From Liolophura sinensis (Eukaryota > Mollusca > Polyplacophora > Chitonida > Chitonidae), in the NCBI RefSeq assembly GCF_032854445.1, contig NC_088295.1:51137385-51201384 (forward strand): DNA of 64,000 nucleotides, given 5' to 3'. The position numbers were made by a program, and so were the translations under genes. How positions within the stretch are numbered: position 1 is the first letter of the stretch; every line of letters starts with the position of its first letter. The notes under the pieces are model-generated. The model did no database searches and was not told the origin of the DNA. It saw only the letters and a list, made by a program, of their open reading frames with translations. Below are positions 3,528 through 63,326 of the stretch, one piece after another.

Positions 3528-3807
3528 TTTTGTTGGAAAAGTACAAGAAGAAAGAAGACGTCAGTGTCTTTGCAATCGACAATGACACATATACGCATTT
3601 GGTGGCTTCTAAAATGGAAAATATTGTAGGGTATCCGCGTCTTCTTCAAAGTAGCAAGATCACCTCGTTAATCAGGTTTTCTTAGTTCAAAGAAGTAAAG
3701 CCTCCATCGACCATCAACTCACAACCGTCTGGAACTTTAACATAACCGATCATAAGGTCATCTGACAGGAGATCATAAGGTCATCTGACAAGAATGAATC
3801 AGTTTTG

Positions 3808-5608: not shown

Positions 5609-5618
5609 CAGACATGTT

Positions 5619-8482: not shown

Positions 8483-8541
8483 TTAGAGTTCTTGAGTGTC
8501 TCTCACATTTTCGTCAGTCCCATATGCTGCCCTCGGACCAT
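8483..8541 (-). CDS. e54: last exon with stop codon (reading frame uncertain)
   Basis: A strong acceptor (TTTGCAG) precedes a short open stretch. Joined to e53 in phase 0 it reads MVRGQHMGLTKM then stop (ending at 8503). In phase 1 it reads DGPRAAYGTDENVRDTQEL then stop at 8483, which looks more protein-like but needs an exon I could not find. Joined directly to e52 (skipping e53) it reads KWSEGSIWD then stop. In any frame the tail is short. 3'UTR probably follows to lower coordinates. Confidence 0.5.
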
Positions 8542-11500: not shown

Positions 11501-14500
11501 AAGAATGCCCATGAAATCTGGATTTCATTACAGAATTGGTGTATGATACAATAAAACTTTATGGGAAATATAATTTCAAAAACTATACATGCTGTTGCCA
11601 TGATAATAAAACGTACATGCAAACAACTCTGACAATGACATGCATTTGTAAAGGAGTACCGCAGCTGCGCAGCGAAATTTTGCTTTTATGACACCAAATC
11701 TACTGTTTTTTCTGGAGATGACAACAAAAAGCCTCACTCATATCTTTTCCAAGACCTTTTCACCAACTGCCTTTCCTTTCAAGCCTGTATGTATGTACTT
11801 ACTAAACTGCACGTATTAAAAAACCAACTGTATCATCAAAACACTTATTCATTTATTTATTTAATTGATTGTTGTTTTATGCCGTACTCAAGAATATTTC
11901 ACTTATACGACGGCAGCCACCATTATGGTGGGAGCAAACCGGGCAGAGTCCGGGGAAAACCCATGACCATCCACAGGTTGCTGGCAGACCTTCCCACATA
12001 CATCAAAACACTTGTATATAAGCATATAAACTATGGACGTAACGTAACACTTACTTCTGTTTCCTCAGATGGAGTATAAGGACCAGCACTATCATGATGA
12101 TAAGCAGTAAAATGAGTATAGCTACGACGATGATGAGAGCCAGCTCCAGATCTGTGTACTGGGAAAGGATTCGGTCAGTTGTCACTGTACAGGCTGTCAA
12201 ATACAAGCAATCCTCACAAGTCACATGTACATAGGCCTACATATGGGTTAATCTTTATCATTTTCACAACACATCACATTAGAGAAAGCGAACAGCATTA
12301 CGAAATTCAAATATCTACGATGCCATTTATTTAATTGGTGTTTTATTGCGTTCTAAAGAATAGTTTACTTTCATATGGCACCACCTGATTGGTCAAGTGT
12401 CATCATCCTGGAATATTCATTAGTTGGTTAGCATCACATGACAGAATACATGAAAGAGAAGGAGACACCATTTTTCCTTTCCCATGTGGCCAAATATTTA
12501 TCATACAATATGTGAATCTTTACCTCCTTCCCTTGGCCCAACTGTAAAACCATCATAAAATTTGGTCTCTGTACACCCAGCTGCAGTGCAGGTGAAGCCT
12601 TTAATGCTGAAAGTGAAGAGAAATGCTTGACCATAAGTATAGCTCTACATTACATGGTATCTTCATGAGACAAGCTCAAGGTACAGATCCGCATGACCCC
12701 ACTCTCATTTAGGGTCTGAGGGCTGTGTTGTGATTGGACATCAGAGATCCTTGACAAGTGAAGTATATCAACAGTATGTTAATATTGATCAGCTGAGGTT
12801 CTACATCCGCAAATTTGTTATGTACATGTATATGTATATATTCTGTTCCATTAACTTGATCAAAACAACTGTAACTGATGAGAATACAGTAAAATTGAAA
12901 AAAAACCCCAAAATGAGTGATTTTGAGACAGGAAAGGAAACTATTACGTATATGTTTAGACTGTACCTGTACTGTTTGGAAGGATCTAACTCTCCATTGC
13001 AAAACTCTGTGTTAAGACCAGTACACTGGCCATCCTGCCCAACAGTGAAGATGGCCTGGGACATGCTAGAATCTGAAATCAACAGACAATTAATGTATAC
13101 CAACAGCGCTCATATCCACTGAAGACAGATATCACAGAAATTATCAAGTTTGAAGTAAAAAAAAACATGACCATTCACGCCCATATTCTCTGGTGCTGAT
13201 TGACAACAGATGATCTGATGTATGTGTATATGCATGTATACCACTATTACATACAGTCACCAGTTATTAAATATGATGAAGAAAATAACTTGTATACACT
13301 AATACTTGTGTATTCTGTAGGAATCGAAATGCAAGAGTTTTGATAGTTCTGTTTATCTGGCTATCTATTGGACTGATCTGAACATCCCAAAATGGCCCAT
13401 GAGCAGGGCATTTTAGGTCAGAAAACTGAACTTTACAATTGCATGTGTAATGTTCTTCTCTCCATGTCTCAACTATCATGACATCATCTCAATTTTAGAA
13501 CAAGGGAGAGCTCAGTTGGAAGAGCAACTTACCAAGATTCCAGTCTTTAGGCGTAGCTCTGTACGCGGCTGTCTGACCTTTGTTGGCATCATTCCAGTTT
13601 GTGTATTTACTGTAATACTCTGGTGATTGTCCATTCATTACAGGATCTGCAAAATCCAGCATACATGGTCACATACACTGATCTCTGGTGTCATGACCCG
13701 ATCACTTCATCACCTTTAGCACACAACATGGTCACACACACTGATTTTTCATTTCATGACCCAATTACTTCATCACCCCCATAAAATTTATGTCTTAGCA
13801 CCATAAGTTATATATTACAACCTATATTTGCTTCCAAATATGCTCTTCCTCAAGCAAAGTTTTTATCAGTTAAGGGATACCCAGTACTAGCTATAGGTAA
13901 TGTGGACACCTTATACTTCTAGTCATAGGCCTACCTGAGGCTACTTCAGAATTTTTAACCACTAAGCCATAGTCAACGATTTCTCCATGAGAACTGTCCA
14001 TGAAGAAAGTTGGGTTAACAGAAACTGTGAGTTGATTGGAGCCGTCTTGGTCTGTAACCAGGGTAACCACAGGTGGATAATCTTTCTGTGGCAATGGAGG
14101 GGCTGCAATGCAAGAAAACACACAGTTAACATATATATAATTGACATATTTTTCAGCACACATTTAAATTAAAATTACATATGCACCATTTTTTGCATAC
14201 TAAAACGCATCTATCTTAAACCGTTTTTCAGAAATTGCATCAACATATATTTGTTAGTGCAGACCTACCCACAGTGTAATACTCAACTCATGTAAATTTC
14301 AATATCATTAAAGAGAACATAAAATTTGCCACTAAATATATATACATAGAAAAAATGATATAGGACACAGTTATCACAGAAAATTATGTAAAAATTCTAT
14401 AAAGTCTTGAAAGCTGAGAAGAAGCCATGTTGTAGAAGAACTTATGAACTTGGCCAATCAGTAGTGCTTAAAGTGTCATGTGATAATTGGCTGTCATGTC

Positions 14501-17500
14501 AACTTATGAACTTGGCCAATCACTAGAATTGAAAGTGTCATGTGACAATTGGCTGTCATGTCAACTTACGAACTTGGCCAATCACTAGAGTTGAAAGTGT
14601 CATGTGATAATTGGCTGTCATGTCAAAAAAACCTATTAGCTCTTGATTGTCAGTGTGGTGTCTTATAATGGATAGACAGATATCGATGCAGCATATTGAA
14701 TTTTGCGCTTAGTTTAAGTGTTAACGTGATGCTTTTGAGCCACACATTCATGAGCAGGGAATTCAGAATGGCTGCCTGAGTCACAATGTGTGCATGTTTG
14801 ACAGGACACTGCAGTAACTTGCCAAGGTGAGCTAACAAAAAAACCACCTCGGGAGAGTCATTGCTTGAAGAAAAATATTGTGACTTTGCATTATTTTTCC
14901 TTAGTACAGTCAGATTTATTACGAAGATATCTTTTGTTATCAATCGCAAGGTCCTGTTATGTTTGGTAAATTCCCTGAAGTAGGTACAGCAAGCTAGGCC
15001 AAATGCTGACACCCATGCAGGACAAGGACCAGCAGAACCTCTAAAACATTGTGCTTGTGTCCACGAACATTGCCCTGACCGAGTGACAAACTAAAAGAAA
15101 CATTGGCCCCTTGAACACGAAACAGAGCTAATACTCTGTGGTCGGACATCAGGCGTTTTTGTTTGTATTTTCTCAGTGTCACATTGTTTAATACCGATGA
15201 TACAGGAGAGCTCCTAGGTTTTGTGACATCACTCAAGATTGCCACAACATGGCAAAATGGCGTCACCAAATAAGTGGCTAAGTATTGATAATTGTTTGCT
15301 ATTTATTTTGTTAATAAGCATTGTAGAACTATTAACATATTTTTAGAACATTTCTGACATACTACTACTAAATGATTAATTTTACTTTATTGGCTGACTT
15401 CATGTTCACTTTAAAATTGGGTAAAAACCCCAAAAATATGAAGTAAATAAATCACACCATGACAATAGTGGTAATTTGAGTAAACAAACTAAATATCTAT
15501 CTCACAAGATTACGCCACAAACACCCACTGCACCCATCAAGAATGTGTAAGATCACAGAAATGAAGCTGTAACAGACAAGACAAGTTGTTACACAGAATA
15601 AGGTTCTTACGTCCTATTTCAGAAGCAAAGGTGACATTTTGTGTTACGTTTCCAACCAGGCCTGTTGCTGTCAATGCTCCAACCTACAATGTAAACATCA
15701 CCATATTGGGAGTCGATGACATGATGTAACAAAACGTGATGCTAAGATACTGTAGGTAAACTTTAGTTCAATTTTATTTATTTATTTATTTATTTGATTG
15801 GTGTTTTACGCCGTACTCAAGAATATTTCACTTATACGACGGCAGCCAGCATTATGGTGGGTGGAAACCTGGCAGAGCCTGGGGGGAAACCCACGACCAT
15901 CCACAGGTTGCTGGCAGACCTTCCCACGTACGGCCGAAGAGGAAGCCAGCACGAGCTGGACTTGAACTCACAGCGCCCGCATTGGTGAGAGACTGCTAGG
16001 TCATCACGCTGCGCTAGCGCGCTTAGTTCAATTTTATGAGGATACACTTACATCATCATTTTCAATTTGTCAACATATTTATTTAATACTGTATTTCACT
16101 TAAAATTTAGTAATTTTTAAATGACAGATATTGGTCGATTCTGATTCATTCAACCAGTACCTTATAGAGCCACCTAAGCATTTTTCTTTTACATGTGATT
16201 AATTTCTTATCGCACAAACTTATGTGTTGACATCAAACACATCATTTTTATTTATTTTTTACATGCCAAGCTTTAGGTGAAATGCAGCACTTCACATTGA
16301 ACAACAAGAAAAACCACAACCATTTACCAAATATGCATTCAGATTATTATGTAATGTATTAGAAATGGATTTAATATTGACTATATAGAAATAGACTGTA
16401 GTGAAGTTAGTTGACAGCTGTCTAACCTGTATGCTGTAGTTGTACTCTGGTTTGATGGGAATGTCAGTCATCAGGTGGCCATCGATAAATGTAATACCAG
16501 ACAGCTCTCGGATGATTGTCTCTTCATAGAGCCCAGTCCCATTGGAGTTGGTGCCATTCTTGCCAGTATCAGGCTGTGAAATATGAATAGGGTGTGAAAT
16601 GTTAATGTCTAGAGCCTTGGAACGAATATGGCACTTCTTCTCAAAGGTTGGAAAAAGACATCCAAAAAGGATGATAATTAAGGTAGAGCCCAATATAAAG
16701 CCTTATCAAGATTGAAAAAATAATTGTTTTTGACCTGTTCAACAAATAAGAACTACATGTAAGTGTTTTTCTTGGTATGAATAGGACTGCCTCAAATTAC
16801 ATGTATATCCAGTGGCTTCTTTGAAAAACTGCTTATGTTTTAAAGAGAAAGGTGTAACAGTCAAGAAATCCACTGCAATGATGATGGCCATCAAAGTTAC
16901 TTAATCAGACCAGGTCTGGTGATGCTACACAGTTCATCAGGGGATGCTGGAGTCGTACTGCAAATTTTTTGGCAAATCATGACCCCAAAATTTCCTGAGG
17001 ACAGTGCGCCCTGCTAGGATCGTGTTTTACGATGTAACATATAGTTTTCCCGAATGAAGAACTCTTATATCCAGAAATTTAGGTTTTGGGGCATGCTGAT
17101 TTTATTTATTTATTTCACTGTTTTTTAACACCATACTAAACAATTTTTCACTTACATGATGTCAGTTTTATGGTTTGAGTAAAAAAGAAAACACCATTTT
17201 CGATGGACATTAAGTTGCAAAAACAACTTTGTCAAGGGCTTAGGGTCACCAAGGCTGCATGAACAAAGAGAGCTCATTCCCTATCCATGATCAGGATTGA
17301 ACCTGGACCTTTTGGGTCCTTGTGATTTCAAGACAAGTCCCTTTAGCCACGACTTGCTCCCTCATGTGTAAAGTAAACCTTTTCAATTCAAGCATACTCT
17401 GAGAGAAGAAGCAGCGAAAATTGCTCACAGTATAAAATGCTCTCATTTAACCTGCTAAAACTAGTGGGTAATAAGAAAGTTTGACGATTTTTTATTGAAT

Positions 17501-56500: not shown

Positions 56501-59500
56501 AATTCATGCAGGCCAGATATCTTTATATATGATGATGTATGGTACCCGCCGTGAGTTACGACAGAATACCAAGCGTAAAAAATTAAGACTGAATTTATTA
56601 TCAATGAAGCATTATTATCAATGAACAAATTATTTCTGATACAAAATGTTTTCTATTTAAGATTTTTACCAACCACCATGTTCTCTCCGTGCAAGATTTT
56701 TGTTTTCGTCCAAGAACTCATTCTTTGGTCGAAGATGTATGATTGCCAAATGGACATTCATGTCAAACGTAAGATGGGACATTCGATGCCACTTGAATTA
56801 TACCTTTGTTCCATAACTGAGGACAACCTAGCTATGACTGTTCATGTTGTAGACTTTGACTTTGTTGTTCATTATTAAGAAAACTGGGTAATAAATGTAT
56901 TTATTTATATTCATCTGCTATTGGGTGGGGTGGATCAGCATCTTCTGCTTGATGAATTTTGGGAGTGAATGAAGCTCCAACCAAAATCTCTGAATGGATA
57001 AAATGATGATGTCATGCACTTGAGAGGTCCATGTAAATGACTTCTATTTTAACATTGCAAACCAGGCCATAGTGACTTCTGATATCTTCTATGATTCCCG
57101 GGAACTTACTCTGTGGCACCAAAGTTGCAATGCCTGGTGAGGTTTGGTCAGCTGTGATGGCCGTCACCTGGAACACATAACTCTGTCCAGGTGTTAGGTT
57201 ATCAAACGTGGCACTTAGGGACCCGTCTGGGTTCACACTGGTGGGTATGTATGTCCTATTGCCTGCCTCCGAGCCATCCTCTGTCCTCCATTCTATCAGG
57301 TATTCCTCTGCAAGCTGGTCTCCAGGCATCCAAACCAGGGTATAGGAGCCAGCAGTTGACCTGGATGGCTGTGTGGCCATTATTGACGGAGCCAGGGGAT
57401 CTGGTGAGGAATATCCCATATGTTAAAATTTTATTTTTTAATCAGAATAGACTGGGGAGAAGTATCCCTCAAGACACCAAAATTATGTTACTGAAAGTAT
57501 TCCCAACAGCCTAAAATGAATTACGTTATCGGAGATTACAATCATATTAAACTCATGTGCTCCTTTGTCGCTCAGATATGGCTTAATAATTTCGTGAGAA
57601 CCTATAGTCTTCACACGAACTCATGGATCAAATACAATGAACTTTGGCCTAAAAAAGTAGGTTGAAGGTCATCATGTTATGTGACAATTTCAATCAATGT
57701 AACCAGTTGTTACTATCGTTTGATCCATCAAGCGCCTTTACTTTATGTTTCTTAGGCCTTACGATGAGTATAATTCTCTTGTGAGTACATATGGACAGAG
57801 CATCCAGAGTCTCTGGCACTCTTATTCATGATTCTGTCTAATTCCACTTAACCCAGAGAAAGGGGCATTATACTTAACCTACTGATTTAGCATGCCACAT
57901 TGGATACATGAACATTACATCCACAGATTCATGCAGGCAACTTAATTCCATCTGGGTCTGTCAGCAGCCTGCGGATGCTCGTGGGTTTCCCTCGGGCTCT
58001 GCCCGGTTTCCTCCCACCATAAATGCTGGCCGCCGTCGTATATTGGAAATATTCTTGTGTACGGCGTAAAACACCAATCAAATAAATCAAATAATTCCGT
58101 ATATATGATCCACCAGTGACCTGGAACGTTTGTCTTGGTTGATGACTGGAATATGAATGCCTGTTTCGATGCATGAATTCATAAACATATAGGATTGTTT
58201 CTCTGAAGATTGCTCTGTATTTTCGGGGATATAATGTTGACAAGAGTTAAACCTGAACTCTAAAGCCTGAAAACAATGTCTGTTTAAAGAGCTATAATTA
58301 AATGCCTCTTCAAAAAGCAAAAAGCGCTGCTAAACCATTTGTATTAGTGAAAGTTGTTGGAACCTGCAAGAAATTCAGTTTTAGAAAAACTACACCTATG
58401 TACCCAGAATAGTCTGTTCTTGAGATGTGGCAGGCATTGTCCAGGTGCCATTGTAAGCCGTCCTCACGCTAACAGTGTAACTTGTGTTGGCAGGCAGGGG
58501 AGTGTCCTCAAAGTTCACCCGCACCAACCTCTGTCGTCCTGTCCCCTCCCACACAGTCTTGTTACTGGTGTATGCTCTCCCCTGACTATCTCTCAGGGTA
58601 ACCTCTAGGTTAGGGGTCACCGTACTGTTTCCTAACAAGGTCACCTCTAGCTCGCCACCATACTGGGTAACCTGGGTCAGTTTCACATCTGTGGGGGCTG
58701 AGGGTACTAAGGAAAAGAACACACAAAACATACTAAAATATGTTTACGCCTGCTTGACATGAAATAGTTCCCAAAGTCATTCTGTAGAGTACTGTTATTT
58801 TTCCATTTTTACTCCCTTTTGTTTCAATCTTCAACATCCATATCGTAATACACTGAGACATTATTATCAGCATTCTAAAGCAGCAGTTAAAAAATGTTAA
58901 TACAATTATCTACATAGGGACACACCCAACGTTTCACTACCATACTAATCAGTAACTAGAATAGCTTAAAAACAATCTAGCAACATAAAACAAATAACAG
59001 GCACTTACATGAAGTAAAAGTAAGGAAAGCTGGTGTTGACCTCAGATCCTGATCTACCACAGCCTCTACAAAAGCCCCATAGTTTTCCCCAGGGATAGTG
59101 TAAGGCAAGGTCATGGTGTAGGGCTGGGTCATGTCATGATCAGGTGAGGGGATGTAATCCTGCTCCAGTCTCATCCCATCTGTACCCTCAATACGGATAC
59201 CATAATAATCTACCATTCCCCCTCCCGACATCCAGCTTAACACAAGGCTACCATTGGCTGGATCAGGGTGGGGCTCTACTGTTAGGAACATTGGTGTTGC
59301 TGGTCCTGGATAATATCAACAAAAATACAAATTTATAACAGCTTTAAGGGTGTCCCTGCAATGAAGAAAAGACTACTCTTGTAAAAGAGCACTCGATGTG
59401 CATTTCGTGTTCGATCAAAACATTTAGTTGAGGCCATTTGGTCAAACCTTACATGTGAAATTTCTTGGTCTTAATTATGGCTCTTTGGAAAAGCTGTCAA

Positions 59501-62500
59501 TAAACTCAAAAATACACATGCACTTGCAGGCTACATAAGGCTACATGATAATGCACATACTCCCAATAAGTTACAGCTGTTTGGAATTCTAATGCGGTAA
59601 AATGAAGACTTAAGTGCTTCCCCTAAAAAGTTTGATGTTTCCGTCCAAAATGTATCAATGTCATGTCATTATTGCCGCAAAATGTTTTCTATTTAAGATC
59701 TTTCCCAATCCAAATTTTTTCGTGCAAACGTTTTTGTTCTTATCAAAGACTTTTTCATTCCAGATTCATATGTTCAGTAAAAAAAATTGACTTAACCACG
59801 AAGACTATGACATCCCATTGAACCAATTTAGAACACATTAAGAAGAACTGCATGCTGTTATTGAAGAGCGATGGCCACGGAGAGCCTGATCAGAGTTCAC
59901 GAACACGTGTTAGGCTTTGCGGTATTCTTCACTTTCTAACTGCTCTATTACTTTAAATGTTGGACGCCACGTGAAACACTGCCAGGTTGTTTGGGGGAGT
60001 ACCATGATATGAAATAGACATCAATGCAAAATGAAAAAAGATGGGACATTCGCGGTCATGTGAATTTAACCTGCATGCTGTAAATGCTGACGGCCTATAT
60101 CTGGCCATGTTGCTAATCTTACCTTTGCTGTCCATCAATAAGAAAACTTCTATTTGGGTGGGTAATAAATGTATTTATTAATATTCATCAGCTAACAAGT
60201 CAAGCAAAACTGCTTCTGTATGTTGTGTCATTAACTGCAGCTATATGCGAATTCTCTGACTTAATAAAACCAAGATGATGTGCACTTGAGAAGTACTTTG
60301 TAAATGAGTTTTCAACATTTCAAAACCAGTCATAGTGACTTCTGATATCTTGTTTGATTCCCGGGAACTTACTCTGTGGCACCAAAGTTGCAATGCCTGG
60401 TGAAGTTTGATCAGCTGTGATGGCCGTCACCTGGAACACATAACTCTGTCCAGGTGTTAGGTTATCAAATGTGGCACTTAGGGACCCGTCTGGGTTCACA
60501 CTGGTGGGTATGTATGTCCTATTGCCTGCCTCCGAGCCGTCCTCTGTCCTCCACTCTATCAGGTATTCCTCTGCAAGCTGGTCTCCAGGCATCCAAACCA
60601 GGGTATAGGAGCCAGCAGTTGACCTGGATGGCTGTGTGGCCATTATTGACGGAGTCAGTGGATCTGGTGATAGACATGTAATATGTTAGAATGTTATTTG
60701 CTCTCAACAGATTGGGAAGAAGTAGTACTCAAGGGACACAAAAGTTATGCTTTATATAATATCTCTAAAATCTAAAACGAATTGCACTGCGGTAGGCTAC
60801 ATATTAAACTCCCTTGGCCTTCAAATATGTGTCAAACACCCAGTCAATACAAGTTATCCAGTAGATAATCAAACCCATATAGAAAATGCATGCAGATACC
60901 ATTCGAATAGTAAGTTTGTGAGAAATTATAATTTTATATGCTTATCAGCTCATGATTGTAACACCCCATGAGTGAAATGCAAATAACTCTGACTTGACAA
61001 AGTATTGGAAGGTCACTCATGTAAACAACAATTTACTGTTGGTGTCTGGCTGTCTACCAATGGCCACGTGAACATGTAAAATTGCTGGACTGAATTCTGC
61101 CAGGTATTTGTTGGGACATGATGATGAAAAGGGTTTAACATGAACTTTAGCTCATCAAAATAAATGTCCGCTGATAAGAGCTAATTCAGTTTTAGACAAA
61201 CTACACGTATGTACCCAGAATAGTCTGTTCTTGAGATGTGGCAGGCATTGTCCAGGTGCCATTGTAAGCCGTCCTCACGCTAACAGTGTAACTTGTGTTG
61301 GCAGGCAGGGGAGTGTCCTCAAAGTTCACCCGTACCAACCTCCGTCGTCCTGTCCCCTCCCACACAGTCTTGTTACTGGTGTATGCTCTCCCCTGACTAT
61401 CTCTCAGGGTAACCTCTAGGTTAGGGGTCACCGTACTGTTTCCTAACAAGGTCACCTCCAGCTCTCCACCATACTGGGTGACCTGGGTCAGTTTCACCTC
61501 TGTGGGTGCTGTAGGTACTAAGAAAAAGAAAACATAAAACATACCAAAATCGGTTCAAGCCAGTTTGACAAAAAAAAAGGAGAACACAAAACATACCAAA
61601 TTATGTTTACGCCAGCTTGACAAGAAACTAACTTTCAAAATAATACAGAGTACAGAACAGCTAGTTCCCATGATGTCTGGAAGATTTTAGTACCTTCGTT
61701 TCCATCGTAATCAACAACATAACGCACGAAGAATTATCAGCATCTTGGAGCAACAAACAAATTTTAGTACGGTTATCTACAGAGAAAACACTTCACTACC
61801 AGCTGTCTCATTTTCAAAAATCTAGAAAAAATAAAAACAAATAACAGGCACTTACATGAAGTAAAAGTAAGGAAAGCTGCTGTTGACCTCAGATCCTGAT
61901 CTACCACGGCCTCTACAAAAGCCCCATAGTTTTCCCCAGGGATAGTGTAAGGCAAGGTCATGGTGTAGGGCTGGGTCATGTCATGATCAGGTGAGGGGAT
62001 GTAATCCTGCTCCAGTCTCATCCCATCTGTACCCTCAATACGGATACCATAATAATCTACCATTCCCCCTCCCGACCTCCAGCTTAACACAAGGCTACCA
62101 TTGGCTGGATCAGGGTGGGGCTCTACTGTTAGGAACACTGGTGTTGCTGGAGCTGTAATGAAGAATGGTACTTACACATAACCATGAACAAACCCTGACG
62201 CACAAGCTCAATAAGCCAAATTGCAATTTTTATTGTGGGCTAAAAACAAATGTGTGATGCATGTGCAAGATAGCCCCAGGTGTCATGTCGGATTAAGTTG
62301 GGTTTGTGTGGGTTTTTGTTTTTAGTTTGATTTGGGTTTCATGTTGCCTTTTTATTTCCATCATATCACCTATCTCACTTAAGAACTGTTCAGCATATCT
62401 CATCCACAAAGTGTGAGGAAAACCAACAAAAGCTGACAAAAGCTATACTAGATTACAGCAGGTCACAAAAATCAAACTCAGCAGTCAACTCACGGATCCC

Positions 62501-63326
62501 AGACTGGCATGTAAATATTAACTAAAGATAGTCACTAAAAATGGTCAAGACATCTCATCTGCAAAACAGGTGTGACAGAGAGGAAGTTCAGGATGACCAA
62601 CAGCAGCCCCTCTAATGGATCTCGTAGAGTGACAAATATCGTAGAGTGTAAATATGAACATATTTGGTGGAAAACTGCTAAGCATATCTTGTTCACAAGA
62701 ATAAGTTTGACAGACGGATAGACGGAAGCACGTGCACATGAAAAGCATTTACATGTACCCAACCACTTTCATGGCTGACAATAGTTATTATACTTATATG
62801 ACTGGAATCTGTACAATGTTTACCCACAAATATAGACGTCATTAAATCATGTATAGTGTGGCTGCTCACAGGTATTTGCATGTAGTTCTGTCACACAGCA
62901 GTAATACTTCAGTTATAAAAATATTTTCCTCAAGAATTAGTAGAATCTCTGTTCATAACTACTTGAAAAAAAAATGACGCATAAATTTGTATGACGCTGG
63001 AGGTTTCCAAGAGCTATTCTCACCTTGAGTGTAAAGATAGTTAAGGCCTTTGGCAGTCTGGTTCCCCTGTGTGGCAGTCACAGTGAAGATGTACTGTTCC
63101 CCAGGCGTAAGATCTGTGACTGGGATGGACACTGGCCTATAGTACTCCTGAGTAGTTGGTATAAAGGTGGAGCTGTTCCTAACACCACTGCTATCTATCC
63201 ACTCCACAAGGTAACTCTCCACCAGGCTCTCCCCAGGCAGAACTCTTACAAGAGCAGAATCAGAAGTTTGTAAAGTGTTCCTACTTGGACCCAACTGGAT
63301 GCTGGCGACTGTTGGGGTAAGAGGGC
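8483..63326 (-). CDS. Giant FN3-repeat single-pass membrane receptor (5' end outside the window)
   Basis: This entry spans the whole gene; its exons are listed separately as e1 to e54. The spliced reading frame stays open and in phase across the exons, except for one problem at e38. Order: 40 single-exon FN3 modules, three FN3 modules split over e41 to e47, a juxtamembrane module (e48 to e51), one transmembrane helix (e52) and a short tail (e53, e54). Total in the window is about 4,500 residues. No signal peptide is present, so the start lies to the right of the window. The juxtamembrane part (GEIVDYGLVV, CNGELDPSKQY, GFTCTAAGC) resembles R3-class receptor tyrosine phosphatases such as PTPRB and PTPRJ. 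No phosphatase domain was found, so it may be a catalysis-free relative, or the catalytic exons may be elsewhere. Likely role, by inference: cell-surface adhesion or ligand binding. Confidence 0.85.
9166..9432 (-). mobile_element. tRNA-derived SINE, full-length, copy 3
   Basis: Complete element on the minus strand in the intron between e53 and e54, flanked by a perfect 12-bp duplication tactcaagagta (9154 to 9165 and 9433 to 9444). Confidence 0.95.
9445..11093. other. Long intron between e53 and e54
   Basis: No exon that I can support. A missing phase 0-1 exon could lie here, since the final exon reads best in phase 1. No phosphatase motif (HCSAG, WPDHG) was recognised by eye. Confidence 0.4.
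11094..11145 (-). CDS. e53: cytoplasmic tail exon (probable)
   Basis: Acceptor CATTGCAG, donor GTAATC, phase 2 to 0. Reads QKEGRLVKGELNDGHDT after the junction Lys. A basic then acidic composition fits a juxtamembrane cytoplasmic segment. It is small and rests only on splice sites and an open frame. Confidence 0.6.
11847..12000 (-). mobile_element. 5'-truncated SINE, copy 4
   Basis: Contains only the 3' body and tail, no tRNA head. Flanked by a perfect 13-bp duplication catcaaaacactt (11834 to 11846 and 12001 to 12013), so it was inserted as a truncated copy. It ends about 40 bp from e52. Confidence 0.93.
12055..12193 (-). CDS. e52: transmembrane exon
   Basis: Phase 1 to 2, donor GTAAGT. 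Reads ACTVTTDRILSQYTDLE, then an uncharged stretch of about 24 residues rich in Leu, Ile and Val (LALIIVV to VLVLIL), then HLRKQK as stop-transfer. This places all FN3 modules outside the cell and the C-terminus inside. Confidence 0.88.
12321..12395 (-). mobile_element. Diverged SINE tail fragment
   Basis: Reads ttaattggtgttttattgcg and ctaaagaatagtttacttt, recognisable as the 3' tail of the SINE family but old. Confidence 0.6.
12524..12606 (-). CDS. e51: juxtamembrane module, part 4
   Basis: Phase 2 to 1, donor GTAAAG. Reads SIKGFTCTAAGCTETKF and then YDGFTVGPREGG. Two Cys, probably pairing with those of e50. It ends just before the transmembrane exon. Confidence 0.82.
12967..13072 (-). CDS. 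e50: juxtamembrane module, part 3
   Basis: Phase 1 to 2, donor GTACAG. Contains QAIFTVGQDGQCTG and NTEFCNGELDPSKQY. The Cys-Asn-Gly-x-Leu-x-Pro-x-x-x-Tyr pattern is the most family-specific match to R3 receptor phosphatases. Confidence 0.84.
13533..13646 (-). CDS. e49: juxtamembrane module, part 2
   Basis: Phase 1-1, 38 residues, donor GTAAGT. Reads DPVMNGQSPEYYSKYTNW and then NDANKGQTAAYRATPKDW. Tyr/Trp-rich, matching the linker between the two halves of the R3-type juxtamembrane module. Confidence 0.82.
13655..13790. repeat. Two-copy tandem repeat, about 68 bp
   Basis: catggtcacatacactgatc and catggtcacacacactgatt start the two copies; both continue with catgaccc and ttcatcacc. Lies between e48 and e49, just upstream of e49. 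Confidence 0.65.
13935..14102 (-). CDS. e48: juxtamembrane module, part 1 (R3 receptor-phosphatase-like)
   Basis: Phase 1-1, 56 residues, donor GTAGGC. Contains PPPLPQKDYPPVVTLV, TVSVNPTFFMDSSHGEI and VDYGLVVKNSE. The Gly-x-Ile-x-x-Tyr-x-x-x-Val pattern after a Phe-Phe stretch resembles the last ectodomain module of R3-class receptor phosphatases, by memory of that family. Confidence 0.82.
14439..14626. repeat. 62-bp tandem repeat, three copies
   Basis: Unit contains gaacttggccaatcactaga and gtgtcatgtgataattggct. Copies begin at about 14441, 14503 and 14565. Intron between e47 and e48. Confidence 0.85.
14640..15600. other. Intron sequence between e47 and e48
   Basis: No exon supported. The minus strand is open for about 120 codons at 14650 to 15012 but shows no family motif and no matching splice sites were found. 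Confidence 0.4.
15611..15683 (-). CDS. e47: FN3 module, part 3
   Basis: Phase 0 to 1, 24 codons plus one base, donor GTAAGA. Reads VGALTATGLVGNVTQNVT and then FASEIG. Joined to e46 it gives a normal strand F-G segment. Two sequons. Confidence 0.83.
15777..16022 (-). mobile_element. tRNA-derived SINE, nearly full-length, copy 5
   Basis: Lacks only about 25 bases of the head. Flanked by a perfect 14-bp duplication ttagttcaatttta (15763 to 15776 and 16023 to 16036). Confidence 0.95.
16427..16573 (-). CDS. e46: FN3 module, part 2
   Basis: Phase 0-0, exactly 49 codons, donor GTTAGA. Starts PDTGKNGTNSNGTGLYEE, with two sequons, and ends IKPEYNYSIQ, which joins to e47 to complete strand F. Confidence 0.84.
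17098..17362 (-). mobile_element. Second SINE-like family with tRNA-like head
   Basis: Minus-strand head gagcaagtcgtggctaaagg with B box ggttcaatcc, ending in a tail related to the first family (cagtgaaataaataaataaa) but different in the body. Confidence 0.65.
17701..17840 (-). CDS. e45: FN3 module, part 1
   Basis: Phase 1 to 0, donor GTGAGA. Starts APGAVRNFRVQTIPY; has SAVRLVWDYPGQDQLGAN and ITGYIIRYWREE, the most canonical FN3 N-half near the membrane. The acceptor (CATTGTCAG) lies inside the first unit of a 52-bp minisatellite that fills the next 1.1 kb of intron. Confidence 0.87.
17838..18925. repeat. 52-bp minisatellite, about 21 copies, abutting e45
   Basis: Unit gtgctgacaatgaataaagt / gtagttgtaacagcgagagt / gaagagtatgag. 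The authentic acceptor of e45 sits in the first unit. On the minus strand each unit carries a pyrimidine-rich stretch and TTCATTGTCAG. All three minus frames are open across most of the block because 52 is not divisible by three. Confidence 0.95.
18960..19936. other. Intron sequence between e44 and e45
   Basis: AT-rich with no exon or recognised repeat. Confidence 0.45.
19937..20080 (-). CDS. e44: second half of a split FN3 module
   Basis: Phase 1-1, 48 residues, donor GTATGT. Contains NLTHCFITISQSFWSYRF and IVVASTEMGSLQSNDTV, matching strands E to G of FN3. Its Cys may pair with that of e43. Confidence 0.82.
20612..20779 (-). CDS. e43: first half of a split FN3 module
   Basis: Phase 1-1, 56 residues, donor GTCGGT (weak). 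Starts APASISPPVVRML; contains MEVCVLPPEPYPGPVTYRVE and the sequon NETLSG. Strand-B Trp is replaced by Val-Leu. Confidence 0.8.
21535..21692 (-). mobile_element. 5'-truncated SINE, copy 6
   Basis: Body and tail only (tttcattggtgttttacgcc at the left). Its truncated end lies about 20 bp from the donor of e42. Confidence 0.85.
21718..21931 (-). CDS. e42: second half of a split FN3 module
   Basis: Phase 0 to 1, 71 codons plus one base, donor GTAAGT. Contains a Cys (SPCAETV), sequons NTT and NVT, and the FN3 strand-F motif LNPYSNYKVILYPEGG. Its donor is about 25 bp from a truncated SINE copy. Confidence 0.85.
22221..22306 (+). mobile_element. Very short SINE copy (86 bp, tail only), copy 7
   Basis: Begins in the 3' body (ccaccataatgctgaccgtc) and ends in a run of A instead of AAATA repeats. 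Perfect 13-bp duplication caaaccatattta at 22208 to 22220 and 22307 to 22319. Confidence 0.93.
22569..22774 (-). CDS. e41: first half of a split FN3 module
   Basis: Enters in phase 1 and leaves in phase 0, donor GTAAGA, 68 codons plus two bases. Contains TVPNTDVKVTSRSAALTW and a Cys-rich end (FACVKEII, GFCRYCPT). The phase-0 border fits e42 exactly. From here the exon pattern changes from one exon per domain to two or three. Confidence 0.83.
23069..23356 (-). CDS. e40: FN3 module
   Basis: Phase 1-1, 96 residues, donor GTAAGT. Starts APSVPRVVYAEPTAD; strand B SNIGVGWVFGEGEADTAY; strand F LKEELRYDISVATGS. Last of the one-exon FN3 modules. A truncated SINE lies just upstream in the intron. Confidence 0.85.
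23382..23541 (-). mobile_element. 5'-truncated SINE, copy 8
   Basis: Tail and body without tRNA head; flanked by tttcattat on both sides (23373 to 23381 and 23542 to 23550). Starts about 25 bp upstream of the e40 acceptor. Confidence 0.9.
24253..24528 (-). CDS. e39: canonical FN3 module
   Basis: Phase 1-1, 92 residues, donor GTAATT. It starts APEPPRNLALDRGLEPS and has SSVNLRWDPPTSYIQGYR and LHAGTTYNISVQSVAWD, a textbook FN3 pattern (PPxN, W, YxI, G-T-x-Y). It contains no Met codon. Confidence 0.87.
24606..24692 (-). mobile_element. Diverged SINE tail fragment
   Basis: atcactggtgttttacgtca and cagcattatggtagg match the family tail with many changes. Confidence 0.65.
25017..25284 (-). CDS. 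e38: FN3 module, B-like, with a frame anomaly
   Basis: The core is clear: GVMVNVKPGEGLADSYLF and LPPGARYVFTVQSVSG, with donor GTGAGT in phase 1. The best acceptor (CTATCCAG) gives an exon of 268 bp, not divisible by three, unlike the other single-module exons. Entering in phase 1 reads the expected linker EPVAPQS but reaches a stop; the FN3 core is in the next frame. Either there is a one-base indel near 25265 to 25284, a phase-0 link to an unseen exon, or an assembly error. Trp of strand B is absent (VNVKPG). Confidence 0.7.
25791..26075 (-). CDS. e37: FN3 module, A-like
   Basis: Phase 1-1, 95 residues, donor GTACTT (weak). Contains PPKMKLVSVKEDPE, LGVVIIWEPVEEGKVDNV and LLPGTSYIIGVNSQV. 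The frame remains open for 18 codons past the donor, so donor choice is less certain than elsewhere. Confidence 0.82.
26234..26521 (-). CDS. e36: FN3 module, A-like
   Basis: Phase 1-1, 96 residues, donor GTGCGT. Contains LPVDVTAVRSEVD, PQVTVRWSQGNGSVECFN and LLPGETYWTGINSEQ. It has two cysteines (VECFN and DHICLP), unusual for the array, so an intramodule disulphide is possible. Confidence 0.85.
26722..26800 (-). mobile_element. SINE tail fragment
   Basis: tttgattggtgttttatgcc, then a homology-losing stretch after tttcac. No clear target-site duplication seen. Confidence 0.75.
27178..27425. repeat. 43-bp tandem repeat, about six copies, next to the donor of e35
   Basis: Unit contains gaatcctcttgtgttctaaa and cagtgtattcccaacatctg. 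It begins within about 15 bp of the e35 donor on the intron side. Confidence 0.85.
27437..27721 (-). CDS. e35: FN3 module, type B
   Basis: Phase 1-1, 95 residues, donor GTGAGT. Starts DPLTPHILSVERHPVSP; strand B NTTLTVYWLPGSDLADKF; tyrosine corner LSPGDMYAVWVIATGFD. A 43-bp tandem repeat starts about 15 bp downstream of its donor. Confidence 0.88.
28225..28518 (-). CDS. e34: FN3-like module, type C
   Basis: Phase 1-1, 98 residues, donor GTATGT. Starts GPSVNIVGITPTS; strand B SMDVELDLFGNVYDDMNV; then LPVNNTYLVDAQLD. It lacks the NxTW ending of other C modules. Confidence 0.86.
28570..29898. other. Intron between e33 and e34
   Basis: This is where a type-C or B module might be expected by rhythm, but I see no FN3-coding stretch. 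29450 to 29640 is GC-richer and open on the minus strand without a family match. Confidence 0.4.
29899..30186 (-). CDS. e33: FN3 module, A-like
   Basis: Phase 1-1, 96 residues, donor GTAATG. Contains PGKPYDVKLKKYEPSP, NNTLLLTWMPRGGKVDYFNI and LTKGERYEVTITAVVG. The GKVDYFN core matches A modules (compare GMVDYYG in e2), so two A modules stand side by side here and a C is missing. Confidence 0.87.
30250..31114. other. Intron between e32 and e33
   Basis: AT-rich, no exon recognised. A type-C module would be expected here by the B-A-C order and is absent. Confidence 0.45.
31115..31402 (-). CDS. e32: FN3 module, type A
   Basis: Phase 1-1, 96 residues, donor GTAAGT. Contains PPTPADVNITRSRDRA, DELAFSWRARGVVDHFVV and LERGDTYLVRVRAVDG. 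A type-C module would be expected next but the following exon is again A-like. Confidence 0.88.
31443..31570 (-). mobile_element. SINE-like fragment, second family
   Basis: tttatttatttacttatttc, then gtactcaagaatttttcacc and ggtgagttttatggttgac, like the tail of the element at 17.1 kb. Confidence 0.55.
31683..31976 (-). CDS. e31: FN3 module, type B
   Basis: Phase 1-1, 98 residues, donor GTAAGT. Starts DSLTPAIVDVETVVDSP; strand B STAFTVTWVAGSNQTDVF; tyrosine corner LTPGQQYIVQLTAIMGN. Last module of the strict B-A-C rhythm. Confidence 0.89.
32195..32890. repeat. 50-bp minisatellite, about 14 copies
   Basis: Unit tccatgacctgtttgcccac / aaaacatagccataaggccg / gaacgagtgc. It fills the intron between e30 and e31, ending about 95 bp from the e30 donor. 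Open in all minus frames for long stretches, so the ORFs seen there are repeat artefacts. Confidence 0.95.
32985..33284 (-). CDS. e30: FN3-like module, type C
   Basis: Phase 1-1, 100 residues, donor GTAAGC. Starts APTSPTNLHLRGVTPFS; strand B VGMNVSLFGEAWENITL; ends LPSGRNYTVSLRTMYNDTW. About 100 bp downstream of its donor a 50-bp minisatellite begins. Confidence 0.89.
33578..33705. repeat. 18-bp tandem repeat, about seven copies
   Basis: Unit gttacaatctatgatcca with variants. Intron between e29 and e30. Confidence 0.85.
34172..34320. mobile_element. 149-bp MITE-like element
   Basis: Ends are inverted repeats of nearly 30 bp: agggccagttgttcaaaagt at the left and, on the opposite strand, agggaccagttgttcaaaag at the right. 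No ORF. I found no clear target-site duplication. Confidence 0.8.
34435..34737 (-). CDS. e29: FN3 module, type A
   Basis: Phase 1-1, 101 residues, donor GTCAGT. Contains PAPPSGVKIDRSEISPA, DSATLLWQYADNL and LSTGQTYHVMLEAL; ends ERIFTFG. A 149-bp MITE lies just downstream in the intron. Confidence 0.89.
35077..35370 (-). CDS. e28: FN3 module, type B
   Basis: Phase 1-1, 98 residues, donor GTAAGT. Starts DSLSPAITQVRHDELSP; strand B ETVFTVVWLAGRN; tyrosine corner LRPGQKYIFRLTAIGLN. Ends in QM plus the first base of a codon, as do e13, e22 and e31 or their near relatives. Confidence 0.89.
35728..36027 (-). CDS. e27: FN3-like module, type C
   Basis: Phase 1-1, 100 residues, donor GTAAGT. Starts APTAPIDVQVLGLTPSG; strand B AVLNVSLFDEAWENVTM; ends LPPGQEYDISLQTLYNNSW. 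Confidence 0.89.
36212..36511 (-). CDS. e26: FN3 module, type A
   Basis: Phase 1-1, 100 residues, donor GTAAGA. Contains NVPPVNVQITPPANS, ENSVVLQWDYLTDKDSSF and LTVGQTYWVHIQSK; ends EKIFTLG. Confidence 0.89.
36628..36970 (-). mobile_element. SINE-like element, second type
   Basis: Minus-strand head ggggagcagagtctagtgga and B box ggttcaaacga, with a tail ending in tttatttattt on the plus strand. aaaatgt flanks both ends, a weak candidate duplication. Confidence 0.55.
37014..37307 (-). CDS. e25: FN3 module, type B
   Basis: Phase 1-1, 98 residues, donor GTAAGG. Starts DPLTPAIVDVRLDNTAP; strand B HEVMHVSWIPGTSQTDDF; tyrosine corner LLAGQHYRVYVTADGDN. Confidence 0.89.
37410..37639 (-). mobile_element. 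tRNA-derived SINE, nearly full-length, copy 9
   Basis: Body with a small internal deletion, head truncated at gcgcgctaacc. Perfect 13-bp duplication ctataaaagttgt at 37397 to 37409 and 37640 to 37652. Confidence 0.93.
38173..38478 (-). CDS. e24: FN3-like module, type C
   Basis: Phase 1-1, 102 residues, donor GTGGGA. Starts APTAPSAVTVQSVSPYG; strand B VDVNVEVFGDS without Trp; ends MVPGENYTLSLQTRVDNYTW. Confidence 0.88.
38600..38950. repeat. Probable dispersed repeat
   Basis: Phrases such as agccaagtttcatgaaatta, tgacagacaaagctgacacc and acaacgcattgcgttgt look like a dispersed element common in mollusc-like genomes. This is recognition from memory without a second copy in the window. Confidence 0.35.
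39445..39750 (-). CDS. e23: FN3 module, type A
   Basis: Phase 1-1, 102 residues, donor GTATGT. Contains SPSDVVISRNDQSPS, DSALLRWNLRQGDQDGFKL and LISGQTYNLTLETV; ends STIFTFG. Confidence 0.89.
40149..40442 (-). CDS. e22: FN3 module, type B
   Basis: Phase 1-1, 98 residues, donor GTAAGT. Starts DPLTPAILSVSEDPVAP; strand B DTAITVVWVPGE; tyrosine corner LTPGQSYNVMLTSVTPN. Confidence 0.89.
40970..41266 (-). CDS. e21: FN3-like module, type C
   Basis: Phase 1-1, 99 residues, donor GTAAGG. Starts APSAPTGVSLTGVTPYS; strand B VGMNVSLFGDTWENVTL; ends LQAYQNYSVKAWTIHENVSS. The usual NxTW is altered to NVSSYP, so the Trp of this motif is lost while the sequon stays. Confidence 0.88.
41538..41849 (-). CDS. 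e20: FN3 module, type A
   Basis: Phase 1-1, 104 residues, donor GTAAGA. Starts NPSAPRDVAVDRYEISPN; strand B AAMIRWTKGEGKVDQYNV; tyrosine corner LSSGNTYRVMTRAI; ends ESIFTFG. Confidence 0.89.
42339..42632 (-). CDS. e19: FN3 module, type B
   Basis: Phase 1-1, 98 residues, donor GTGAGT. Starts DALTPALLKVDKSV; strand B ESVLTVSWVPGS; tyrosine corner LTPGQEYIVELVAVQGD. The junction codon uses an A, giving Asn-Pro at the start of e20. Confidence 0.89.
43105..43330 (+). mobile_element. SINE-like element, third family, copy 1
   Basis: Ends ctccaacactaatcaaataa, with gtcacatgtttgaatctaac as a B-box-like stretch. It is followed directly by a second copy. Confidence 0.6.
43337..43575 (+). mobile_element. 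SINE-like element, third family, copy 2
   Basis: Head cctcgcgacctcagatggtt, B box gtttgaatccag, and the same 3' end ctccaacactaatcaaataa. It is adjacent to copy 1 in the same orientation. Confidence 0.65.
43708..44007 (-). CDS. e18: FN3-like module, type C
   Basis: Phase 1-1, 100 residues, donor GTGAGG. Starts APTSASSVTIVGATPYD; strand B IKLNMSLFDTAWENITL; ends LPAGRNFTVTVQTEYNGEW. The AWENxT motif recurs in e21, e27 and e30. Confidence 0.89.
44706..44970 (+). mobile_element. tRNA-derived SINE, full-length, copy 10
   Basis: Complete head (gcctccgtggctcagttggt), body and AAATA tail; flanks share tttgctt. The copy is close to consensus, so fairly recent. Intron between e17 and e18. Confidence 0.92.
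45325..45624 (-). CDS. e17: FN3 module, type A
   Basis: Phase 1-1, 100 residues, donor GTAATA (weak). Starts DPVSPSNLRVGFSDVSPS; strand B NSAMIIWDFDDGEADFFRI; tyrosine corner LQPGETYRVLLQTV; ends VEKIFTFG. The IFTFG ending recurs in e20, e23, e26 and e29, defining an A sub-family. Confidence 0.89.
45900..46178 (-). CDS. e16: FN3 module, type B
   Basis: Phase 1-1, 93 residues, donor GTTTGT (weak). Starts DILKPSILEVVRGVG; strand B QSVIVVWRTGALPADSY; tyrosine corner LRSGHEYLFTVVAFQGS. The shortest of the regular B modules. Confidence 0.86.
46530..46790 (-). mobile_element. Possible SINE-like element, second type
   Basis: Poly(T) followed by actgaacaatttttcagtca and, at the far end, ggaagctaccacttcc. 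The layout matches the element at 17.1 kb but conservation is weak. Confidence 0.35.
47000..47640. other. Intron between e15 and e16
   Basis: AT-rich. A short stretch at 47310 to 47345 (ccacatcggcaattttgctg) resembles 6310 to 6330. No exon seen. Confidence 0.4.
47653..47961 (-). CDS. e15: FN3-like module, type C
   Basis: Phase 1-1, 103 residues, donor GTGAGT. Starts APTAPTSLNLREVGG; strand B SAEIEVDMFDT without Trp; ends LPTNQTFTATAISHINGTW. Confidence 0.88.
48728..48993 (-). repeat. 133-bp direct duplication containing the 3' part and donor of e14
   Basis: Two adjacent copies differing at about two bases. The copy at 48861 to 48993 includes the real end and donor of e14 (donor at 48938 to 48943); the copy at 48728 to 48860 carries a second donor (48805 to 48810) and the same 3' exon fragment without an acceptor. 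Confidence 0.93.
48944..49237 (-). CDS. e14: FN3 module, type A
   Basis: Phase 1-1, 98 residues, donor GTAAGT. Core EDTVTMTWEKGDGVVDFH and VIGAQYQVTIWSVVNKD. The 3' part of this exon with its donor has been tandemly duplicated downstream (133-bp unit), leaving a second donor and an exon fragment in the intron. Confidence 0.88.
49240..50266. other. Intron between e13 and e14
   Basis: No exon or recognised repeat. Several short ORFs on the minus strand lack family motifs. Confidence 0.45.
50267..50557 (-). CDS. e13: FN3 module, type B
   Basis: Phase 1-1, 97 residues, donor GTAAGT. Starts DPLAPSLLSVTTQTEANG; strand B RTAILTWESGST; tyrosine corner LTPGETYTFFATALTAN. It has the B-type linker DPLAP but a diverged core. 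Confidence 0.88.
50735..50911. repeat. 44-bp tandem repeat, four copies
   Basis: Unit ccacctaatcttgaagaaca / ctaaccaagacactgccaaa / atga. Intron between e12 and e13. Confidence 0.9.
51296..51601 (-). CDS. e12: FN3-like module, type C
   Basis: Phase 1-1, 102 residues, donor GTAAGT. Starts DKAAPSRASVGKVYQ; Trp-less strand B FEMNVTMLGVN; ends LPENRTYIATIRTYSNGVW, where the sequon Thr is replaced by Val. Preceded in the intron by a short 36-bp tandem repeat. Confidence 0.87.
51799..51950. repeat. 36-bp tandem repeat, about four copies
   Basis: Unit aaatggacatacttgatgtt / taacttcatcaaagtc. Because 36 is divisible by three it looks like a repetitive ORF (KWTYLMFNFIKV on the plus strand), but it lies in an intron and needs no coding explanation. 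Confidence 0.92.
52147..52440 (-). CDS. e11: FN3 module, type A
   Basis: Phase 1-1, 98 residues, donor GTAGGT. Starts EPPTPESLAVEPARG; strand B NDILFTWYPGRS, then RVNGYEVKLAEAG and LSQGAEYVVSVAAVNND. Diverged from e2/e5/e8 but with the same place in the B-A-C order. Confidence 0.88.
52635..52925 (-). CDS. e10: FN3 module, type B
   Basis: Phase 1-1, 97 residues, donor GTGAGT. Starts DPLAPSILARQPPRS and has FAEGYLIEWRTEDGSE and NLTPGQSYVFQVTAI. Very close to e4 and e7 although its A and C neighbours (e11, e12) are clearly diverged. This suggests a gene-conversion or duplication border between e9 and e11. Confidence 0.9.
53365..53512. repeat. 48-bp tandem repeat, three copies
   Basis: Unit aaatcacgtaactgcaggtg / agttacggaaactagttaca / atttgtta. 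Intron between e9 and e10. Confidence 0.85.
53665..54055. repeat. 32-bp minisatellite, about 12 copies
   Basis: Unit cattaacaggttaccagtat / cggaacaggtgt, with a second variant (tactgaaacaggcat) mixed in. Intron between e9 and e10. Confidence 0.93.
54218..54690. repeat. Higher-order repeat: 104-bp unit built of four 26-bp subunits
   Basis: The four subunits start caacacgagaccaaactgga, cctcacaagaccaaagcaga, cccatcaagatcaaagtgga and ccagacgaggccaaagtgga. The order repeats about four times, roughly 18 subunits in all. The plus strand is open through the block (168 codons) only because of the repeat. Confidence 0.93.
55436..55738 (-). CDS. e9: FN3-like module, type C
   Basis: Phase 1-1, 101 residues, donor GTGAGG. 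Starts LPVAPTEVKLTQITQYGG; strand B is ELEVTLLGNTT with no Trp; ends TSYTVSVRTAYNGTW. Last member of the near-identical array. The next exon is about 2.5 kb away, across an intron filled with tandem repeats. Confidence 0.9.
56005..56301 (-). CDS. e8: FN3 module, type A
   Basis: Phase 1-1, 99 residues, donor GTAAGT. Starts GPATPMFLTVEPHPDPANG, with SLVLSWRSGGG and IPGENYGAFVEAVVEPD. The third near-identical copy of this module (with e2 and e5). Confidence 0.9.
57110..57400 (-). CDS. e7: FN3 module, type B
   Basis: Phase 1-1, 97 residues, donor GTAAGT. Starts DPLAPSIMATQPSRS; strand B is SYTLVWMPGDQ and the tyrosine corner NLTPGQSYVFQVTAI. Only a handful of base differences separate it from e4. 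Confidence 0.9.
57956..58096 (+). mobile_element. 5'-truncated SINE, copy 11
   Basis: Begins gtctgtcagcagcctgcgga and ends gtaaaacaccaatcaaataa. Flanks share taattcc. Intron between e6 and e7, one of the features that separates that intron from its duplicated counterparts. Confidence 0.88.
58404..58706 (-). CDS. e6: FN3-like module, type C
   Basis: Phase 1-1, 101 residues, donor GTACAT. Contains GGELEVTLLGNSTVTPN and TSYTVSVRTAYNGTW. Near-identical to e3 and e9; it shares the weak donor GTACAT with e3 while e9 uses GTGAGG. Confidence 0.9.
59009..59305 (-). CDS. e5: FN3 module, type A
   Basis: Phase 1-1, 99 residues, donor GTAAGT. Copy of e2 and e8, with SLVLSWMSGGG in place of SLVLSWRSGGG. 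The acceptor border (CCAG followed by GACCAGC) gives Arg-Pro at the junction. Differences from e8 cluster in the last 60 coding bases. Confidence 0.9.
59310..60372. other. Intron between e4 and e5
   Basis: Diverged but alignable with the intron between e7 and e8 near both exon borders (for example tttctatttaagatttttac versus tttctatttaagatctttcc). No exon inside. Confidence 0.6.
60373..60663 (-). CDS. e4: FN3 module, type B
   Basis: Phase 1-1, 97 residues, donor GTAAGT. Starts DPLTPSIMATQPSRS and has STAGSYTLVWMPGDQ, LAEEYLIEWRTEDGSE and NLTPGQSYVFQVTAI. Nearly identical to e7 and very similar to e10. No cysteine in the module, as in most of the distal array. Confidence 0.9.
61215..61517 (-). 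CDS. e3: FN3-like module, type C
   Basis: Phase 1-1, 101 residues, donor GTACAT. Type C modules lack the strand-B Trp: here GGELEVTLLGN. The body continues with RLVRVNFEDTPLPAN and ends TSYTVSVRTAYNGTW, a Trp-containing sequon typical of the C class. Near-identical to e6 and e9. The intron on its 5' side has a mosaic structure, described in the findings. Confidence 0.88.
61856..62152 (-). CDS. e2: FN3 module, type A
   Basis: Phase 1-1, 99 residues, donor GTAAGT. It begins APATPVFLTVEPHPDPANG and shows SLVLSWRSGGG, MVDYYGIRIEG and IPGENYGAFVEAV. It is nearly identical in nucleotide sequence to e5 and e8, including silent sites, so it belongs to the recently duplicated or homogenised array. 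N-glycosylation sequon NGS before strand B. Confidence 0.9.
62160..63023. other. Intron between e1 and e2
   Basis: No repeat or exon recognised. It does not match the other B-to-A introns of the duplicated array. Confidence 0.5.
63024..63326 (-). CDS. e1: FN3 module, type B
   Basis: The acceptor follows TTTCAG and the donor is GTGAGA; phase 1-1, 101 residues. It opens with GPLTPTVASI and carries the type-B signature SLVESYLVEW and the tyrosine corner LTPGEQYIFTVTATQGN. The usual strand-B Trp is missing: other B modules have TLVW or TVVW, here the residues are ALVRVLPG. It is the 5'-most exon visible. The frame requires an upstream exon ending in phase 1 beyond the window. Confidence 0.88.

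Follow-up and report, generated by a model that had tools for sequence, protein, structure and literature searches.

The stretch of Liolophura sinensis DNA above raises three linked questions: what kind of receptor carries dozens of fibronectin type III (FN3) modules in a fixed three-part order, from which family did it arise, and what might such a molecule do? The window, by which we mean the whole 64,000-nucleotide stretch, is C1:51137385-51201384. Eight tandem matches to the haemocyanin beta-sandwich family, a marker of molluscs, occur on C8 of the same genome. The gene is read on the (-) strand, positions are in window coordinates, and flanks on both sides of the window were included. An HMM seeded with 13 typed modules and iterated, with matches taken at E 0.01, gave 56 matches. 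These represent 55 single-exon FN3 modules (m01-m55) on the (-) strand from 79395 to 23066, because m08 is split by a frame change into two matches. Forty of them (m16-m55) lie inside the window and 15 to its right, with the gene continuing rightward. The initial annotation had counted at least 43 FN3 modules ahead of one transmembrane helix, and the 40 single-exon modules plus three split modules in the window give the same 43. For the whole gene the total is about 58 (55 single-exon and three split), or about 59 with the juxtamembrane domain. A genome search with Pfam fn3 returned at least five matches in the window among the best 150 candidates scored. The array is made up as follows.

80262-80229 and 81154-81098, (-): candidate signal-peptide exon pair, right of the window; its phases (0, then 1) fit m01
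63997..64000, (-): last bases of m15, class C; the exon continues to 64305, right of the window
63024..63326, (-): m16, class B (e1), a phase 1-1 exon that closes the unit A14-C15-B16
60373..62152, (-): A-C-B unit of m17 (A), m18 (C) and m19 (B); it and the two units that follow are near-identical
57110..59305, (-): A-C-B unit of m20 (A), m21 (C) and m22 (B)
52635..56301, (-): A-C-B unit of m23 (A), m24 (C) and m25 (B)
50267..52440, (-): A-C-B unit of m26 (A), m27 (C) and m28 (B)
45900..49237, (-): A-C-B unit of m29 (A), m30 (C) and m31 (B)
42339..45624, (-): A-C-B unit of m32 (A), m33 (C) and m34 (B), the first of a five-unit sub-block
40149..41849, (-): A-C-B unit of m35 (A), m36 (C) and m37 (B)
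37014..39750, (-): A-C-B unit of m38 (A), m39 (C) and m40 (B)
35077..36511, (-): A-C-B unit of m41 (A), m42 (C) and m43 (B)
31683..34737, (-): A-C-B unit of m44 (A), m45 (C) and m46 (B; m46 is e31)
31115..31402, (-): m47, an A-like FN3 module extra to the period
27437..30186, (-): further unit of m48 (A-like), m49 (C) and m50 (B)
23069..26521, (-): m51-m55, five diverged FN3 modules of one exon each that fall outside the strict period

Of 54 modules tested (m08 left out), 46 have an acceptor and a donor in phase 1 no more than about 12 nt from their edges, while the same test in phases 0 and 2 finds 1/54 and 0/54. Under looser limits a phase 1-1 exon can be read in 53 of the 55, a count that is partly by construction because modules were sought in open frames. 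The exceptions are m53 (25269-25014), which lacks a phase-1 acceptor, and m08 (73077-72781, L002, right of the window), in which the reading frame shifts within the exon through an assembly error, a real frameshift or a skipped exon. An RGD motif occurs in m47 only, among the 55 modules. One could also read the locus as several shorter tandem genes. We consider this very improbable, given the candidate signal-peptide exon pair at the 5' end, the transmembrane exon at the 3' end and the phase 1-1 module exons through most of the array.

The three-part order is strong at the level of sequence identity. Mean identity between modules is 0.359, 0.312, 0.275 and 0.259 at lags 3, 6, 9 and 12, and 0.155-0.168 at lags 1, 2, 4, 5, 7, 8, 10 and 11. 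The observed contrast of 0.085 was reached in 0/20000 shuffles of the order, the largest shuffled contrast being 0.030. The strict B-A-C order first described for e1 to e31 is found in the corresponding 31 modules, m16-m46, and extends past the window, running from m04 to m46 or m47 (43-44 modules). The proposal that the modules fall into three monophyletic classes stands for two of them. In a tree of 43 modules (m04-m46), class C is one side of a branch with support 100/100 and class B with 98/94, whereas class A is split in the best tree and needs two changes, although an AU test does not reject A as a single clade (p 0.224). In a tree of all 55 modules the B clade also includes m53, A needs four changes and the near-membrane modules scatter.

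The sequence signatures first given for each class can be recognised in the alignments. The DPLxP linker of class B has the consensus DPLTP with P5 invariant in the 13 rows given, the GxVDxF/Y core of class A appears as GxGxVDxF in 12 rows, and the strand-B Trp is indeed absent from the class C consensus (14 rows). Pfam fn3 at E 0.01 recognises the classes very unequally, with 13/13 B, 8/12 A and 1/14 C modules, the input having been 13 of the 16 B, 12 of the 19 A or A-like and 14 of the 17 C modules. Searched against solved-structure sequences, a triad gave mostly fibronectin matches. Predicted structure models have a mean confidence of 94.7 for class A and 87.5 for class C, and FN3 chains are among the matches of both. 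The class A model has 20 structure matches at E 0.001, including the FN3 of CD148. The class C model consists entirely of strands and has three matches at E 0.001, the top one being an Ig-type chain (E 4.8e-4). We considered a non-FN3 fold for class C and set it aside, as the model is all-strand with good confidence and matches many FN3 chains, though Ig-type chains too. The prediction supports an FN3 fold for class C, less firmly than for A. Since the fn3 profile misses nearly all class C modules, arrays of this type are likely undercounted.

How was such an order produced? The initial annotation had proposed that the expansion unit was three exons, and this part of the proposal is borne out by tandem DNA duplications of about 3 kb that contain three exons with their introns, and by co-variation of the classes. 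The frame of the unit is a different matter. Comparing round-to-round distances over 14 rounds, we obtain r 0.88 for A with C. Against the B that follows, the values are 0.89 for A and 0.91 for C; against the B that precedes, they fall to 0.38 for A and 0.42 for C. Since A and C track the B after them more closely than the B before them, the copied unit is read as A-C-B in transcription order rather than B-A-C; the apparent B-A-C order arises because the window boundary cuts the gene at that point. We weighed B-A-C as the unit by dropping three rounds with recent copies, which leaves A-C at 0.54 and narrows the gap between following and preceding B (0.52 vs 0.29 for A, 0.70 vs 0.43 for C) with its sign unchanged.

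Fourteen rounds are strict (m05-m46), and there are about 16 when m01-m04 (a first round with a doubled C) and m48-m50 (a late round whose A position holds an A-like module) are counted, plus the extra A-like m47. Two sub-blocks stand out in the tree: the five units of m32-m46 form a clade with support 100/99, and the three near-identical units of m17-m25 one with 100/100. The latter units lie within tandem DNA duplications, which are offset by about 2.8-3.3 kb and include the introns. With three near-identical tandem units next to old ones, the growth of a domain super-repeat can be read from the locus. When the genome was queried with two triads, strong matches fell at this locus only (38/44 and 35/35 among the matches listed), and the remaining six listed matches lay elsewhere at E 0.0017 to 0.043.

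The recent copies show purifying selection. In two recent units the exons are 96% and the introns 58% identical over aligned bases, and the pooled dN/dS is 0.205 over nine non-independent pairs of recent copies; single pairs range from 0.05 to 0.92, the 0.92 pair having four changes. These values bear on whether the array is a decaying pseudogene, as might be suggested by the frame change in m08, the odd m53, the provisional membrane-proximal splice sites and a third split module whose end was not found. We think that there is only a small chance of this, in view of the pooled ratio, the splice sites preserved in 46 of 54 modules and, with the reservation on construction made above, the open phase 1-1 exons.

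The family from which the gene came is best read from the part next to the membrane, where the features are these.

16427..22759, (-): three split FN3-like modules of several exons each, some splice sites provisional
12524..14102, (-): juxtamembrane FN3-like domain (PTP_tm) in four exons, bearing CNGEL
14102-13935, 13646-13533, 13072-12967 and 12606-12524, (-): the four juxtamembrane exons, phases 1-1, 1-1, 1-2 and 2-1, read by eye
12055..12193, (-): transmembrane exon, phase 1-2, ending in RKQ and a split codon
11094..11145, (-): candidate, putative cytoplasmic exon, phase 2-0
8483..8541, (-): candidate last exon; all three frames end within 20 codons

The split modules can be pieced together from 22759 with 21931-21718, from 20779 with 20064-19937, and from 17840-17701 with 16573 on; the end of the third was sought and not found. 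They are weak in Pfam (best fn3 E 0.0024, under the cut-off), and three of their pieces can be aligned with pieces from a paralog (29-44% identity). The juxtamembrane exons match Pfam PTP_tm at E 1.2e-9 (39 bits, cut-off 26.3), while a search of this part against solved-structure sequences gave nothing useful. In R3 receptor tyrosine phosphatases the juxtamembrane FN3-like domain is long and its introns have the phases 1,1,2,1,2 (PMC5336234, PMC5242461), and the phases read by eye in the window gene, 1,1,1,2,1,2, are this series with one extra phase-1 intron. Because the juxtamembrane part matches PTP_tm and the exon phases are those of R3 receptors, the gene probably descends from R3-type receptor tyrosine phosphatases, a descent that the initial annotation had missed. 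At the signature position C3X(n)C4NGPL the window gene has CNGEL and two relatives have CNGPL.

The same juxtamembrane and transmembrane exon and phase pattern can be read in a tandem paralog at C1:32.95 Mb (L009), which is 38% identical to the window gene in the juxtamembrane domain over 154 columns; with the R3 neighbour at C1:51.34 Mb the identity is 28%. The paralog has phosphatase (PTP) exons, and Pfam confirms one of them at 1.2e-18. A single run of one C-like, one X and one A-like module also occurs within the 50 kb of it that were scanned. The C-like module falls within clade C (98/93), which makes class C, at least, older than the array; the X and A-like modules do not group with B or A. 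Placing module X in class B is not what the best tree shows, but is not rejected either (p 0.184). The paralog thus resembles the window gene in its juxtamembrane exon pattern, its split FN3-like pieces and its C-like and A-like modules. It differs in that the fetched copy has PTP exons, and elsewhere among the tandem paralogs one FN3 exon has been multiplied, not three.

Several observations on these relatives are of interest in themselves. The region C1:32.56-33.09 Mb (L009-L015) is a tandem array of R3 receptor phosphatase-like genes, with PTP exons at at least three places and weak A-like module matches at six. A single FN3 exon, not a triad, is present there in four near-identical copies (L011 2945-6072, L012 3817-7053), arranged as two pairs with 2.8-2.9 kb between the copies of each and about 8 kb between the pairs. 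The neighbouring gene at C1:51304000-51352100 (+) (L008, L016, L007), on the opposite strand, belongs to the R3 receptor phosphatases and has PTP exons as well as YCN near its C-terminus; about 86 kb separate its first listed FN3 match from the 5' end of the window gene. A single R3 type has been reported for protostomes (PMC5336234), and the paralog array and this neighbour differ from that picture. Juxtamembrane introns 2 and 3 are called a deuterostome gain in PMC5242461. The phases 1,1,2,1,2 (plus one) occur in the window at 12524-14102 and in the paralog at L009 7020-9436, the comparison with deuterostomes being of phases alone, and in the neighbouring gene (L016 457-999) the juxtamembrane domain occupies one exon. 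Such mollusc introns bear on the dating of these introns as a deuterostome gain.

If the gene is of R3 descent, where is its phosphatase? Downstream of the transmembrane exon we find only short frames, and exon chains assembled by hand end within about 40 codons. The last exon first placed at 8483 is a possible short end, and only one of several such ends. The provisional tail exons contain no YxN. Flanking (-) open reading frames at window -2506 and -3422 were tried as a possible cytoplasmic part and match no Pfam family at cut-off. Eight PTP peptides from one neighbouring R3 gene (one of them partly typed by pattern) gave a best E of 0.30 in C1:51,098,385-51,221,284, a stretch that extends from 51 kb downstream of the transmembrane exon to the 5' end of the gene; the positive control of this search is weak because it is a self-match to the peptides' own gene only. 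Likewise, a PF00102 genome search placed none in the searched stretch among the matches listed, with the best 150 of 397 candidates scored. From these sequence searches the window gene seems to have no phosphatase. The locus may instead hold an ordinary R3 phosphatase with a long ectodomain, whose PTP exons are beyond the searched stretch, missed, lost or misplaced in the assembly. In keeping with this, an exon of phase 2-0 can be read downstream of the transmembrane exon, which itself ends in phase 2, as in two PTP-bearing genes, and the PF00102 result is restricted to the candidates scored. In the paralog, however, the transmembrane exon is followed at 1.5 kb by the next exon and at about 3.5 kb by the PTP exon that Pfam confirms, while here none appears in the 51 kb downstream, and we hold an ordinary phosphatase to be improbable.

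Our preferred explanation, which we regard as reasonably probable, is one gene encoding a signal peptide, about 58 FN3 modules, an R3 juxtamembrane domain, one transmembrane helix and a short tail with no phosphatase, and serving as an extended tether or coat. Here we infer the single transcript, the signal peptide, the tail and the function. Its ancestor would have been an R3 receptor tyrosine phosphatase like those surviving in the tandem array at C1:32.56-33.09 Mb; an A-C-B unit of three exons would have been copied about 16 times over several episodes, and the exons for the phosphatase would have been lost. The product would be an extended surface tether or coat in which the three-module unit is the repeated structural or binding unit. 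Titin measures 43 nm for 11 domains (PMC10665226), from which we estimate a stretched length of about 230 nm for some 59 modules, or about 12 nm per triad. PTPRQ is needed for the shaft connectors of stereocilia, and a structural as well as an enzymatic role is under discussion for it (PMC9900141). A greatly lengthened R3 ectodomain with no phosphatase may be better suited to tethering or coating than to signalling.

The main functional rival keeps the same architecture and makes the protein mainly a ligand sink or a dominant-negative partner of the catalytic R3 receptors (C1:51.30-51.35 and 32.6-33.1 Mb). The R3 juxtamembrane domain is retained, PTP-bearing relatives are on the same chromosome, and a soluble PTPRJ splice form has been reported in angiogenesis (PMC5354644), all of which would suit this role. 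It leaves the ordered triad, copied about 16 times, unexplained, and no ligand is known; we rate it as unlikely, though deserving of attention. Returning to the tether or coat, a more speculative version, for which we would give long odds, is an extracellular molecular ruler: a tether about 230 nm long, with a period of about 12 nm that reads or sets the spacing of a partner filament or membrane. If true, this would be a cell-surface counterpart of the titin super-repeat, in an R3 receptor that gave up its enzyme.

How does the gene compare with known systems? The R3 receptors PTPRQ, PTPRB, PTPRJ and Ptp10D have an FN3-only ectodomain with mostly phase 1:1 exons, one transmembrane helix, and the long juxtamembrane FN3-like domain with its phase series 1,1,2,1,2 (PMC5336234), and an FN3-only ectodomain is likewise found in the window gene by the HMM, Pfam fn3 and the class A and C models. 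The window gene differs in having no PTP domain found, an ordered three-module unit and an extra phase-1 intron, and in its approximately 59 modules compared with the six to seventeen FNIII repeats given for PTPRB, H, J, O and Q (PMC9900141). The Ciona 'Nocat' and the uroplakins UPK2/3 resemble it in keeping the R3 juxtamembrane and transmembrane parts, having lost the phosphatase, and having a short tail, putative in our case (PMC5242461). The uroplakins retain the last FN3-like domain only (PMC5242461), whereas the FN3 array of the window gene is greatly expanded. The A-band of titin has FnIII types A, B and C in positional super-repeats that grew by recursive duplication (PMC10665226), and positional classes multiplied as one unit are also what we see in the window array. 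Titin is sarcomeric and mixes FnIII with Ig domains (PMC10665226), while the window gene is extracellular, purely FN3 and of period three. Usherin, with 32 FN3, is also a very long FN3-rich membrane protein (PMC7317166), but it has laminin-type domains and no ordered triad in the passages available from that source (PMC7317166).

In the open-licence literature we found titin, but neither a receptor whose FN3 modules have a period of three nor a study of mollusc R3 receptors. None of the three elements (R3 receptors, loss of the enzyme, FN3 super-repeats) is new by itself; it is their combination that is new to us. It would place R3 receptors on a path opposite to that of the uroplakins: both lose the enzyme, and where uroplakins shrink to the last domain, the window gene grows an ordered array.

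The introns and flanks of the locus contain repeats of other kinds. Intronic minisatellites with units of about 50-100 bp lie at 17836-18920, 32186-32896 and 54226-54681 in the window and at 80422-81005 outside it, and dispersed repeats of about 250-280 bp, common to introns and flanks, occur in the window at 3804-4053, 5617-5894, 9164-9432 and 44702-44971. In L005 (4461-5306, (-)), an open frame resembles a HES/Orange-type transcription factor, which is possibly the next gene downstream.
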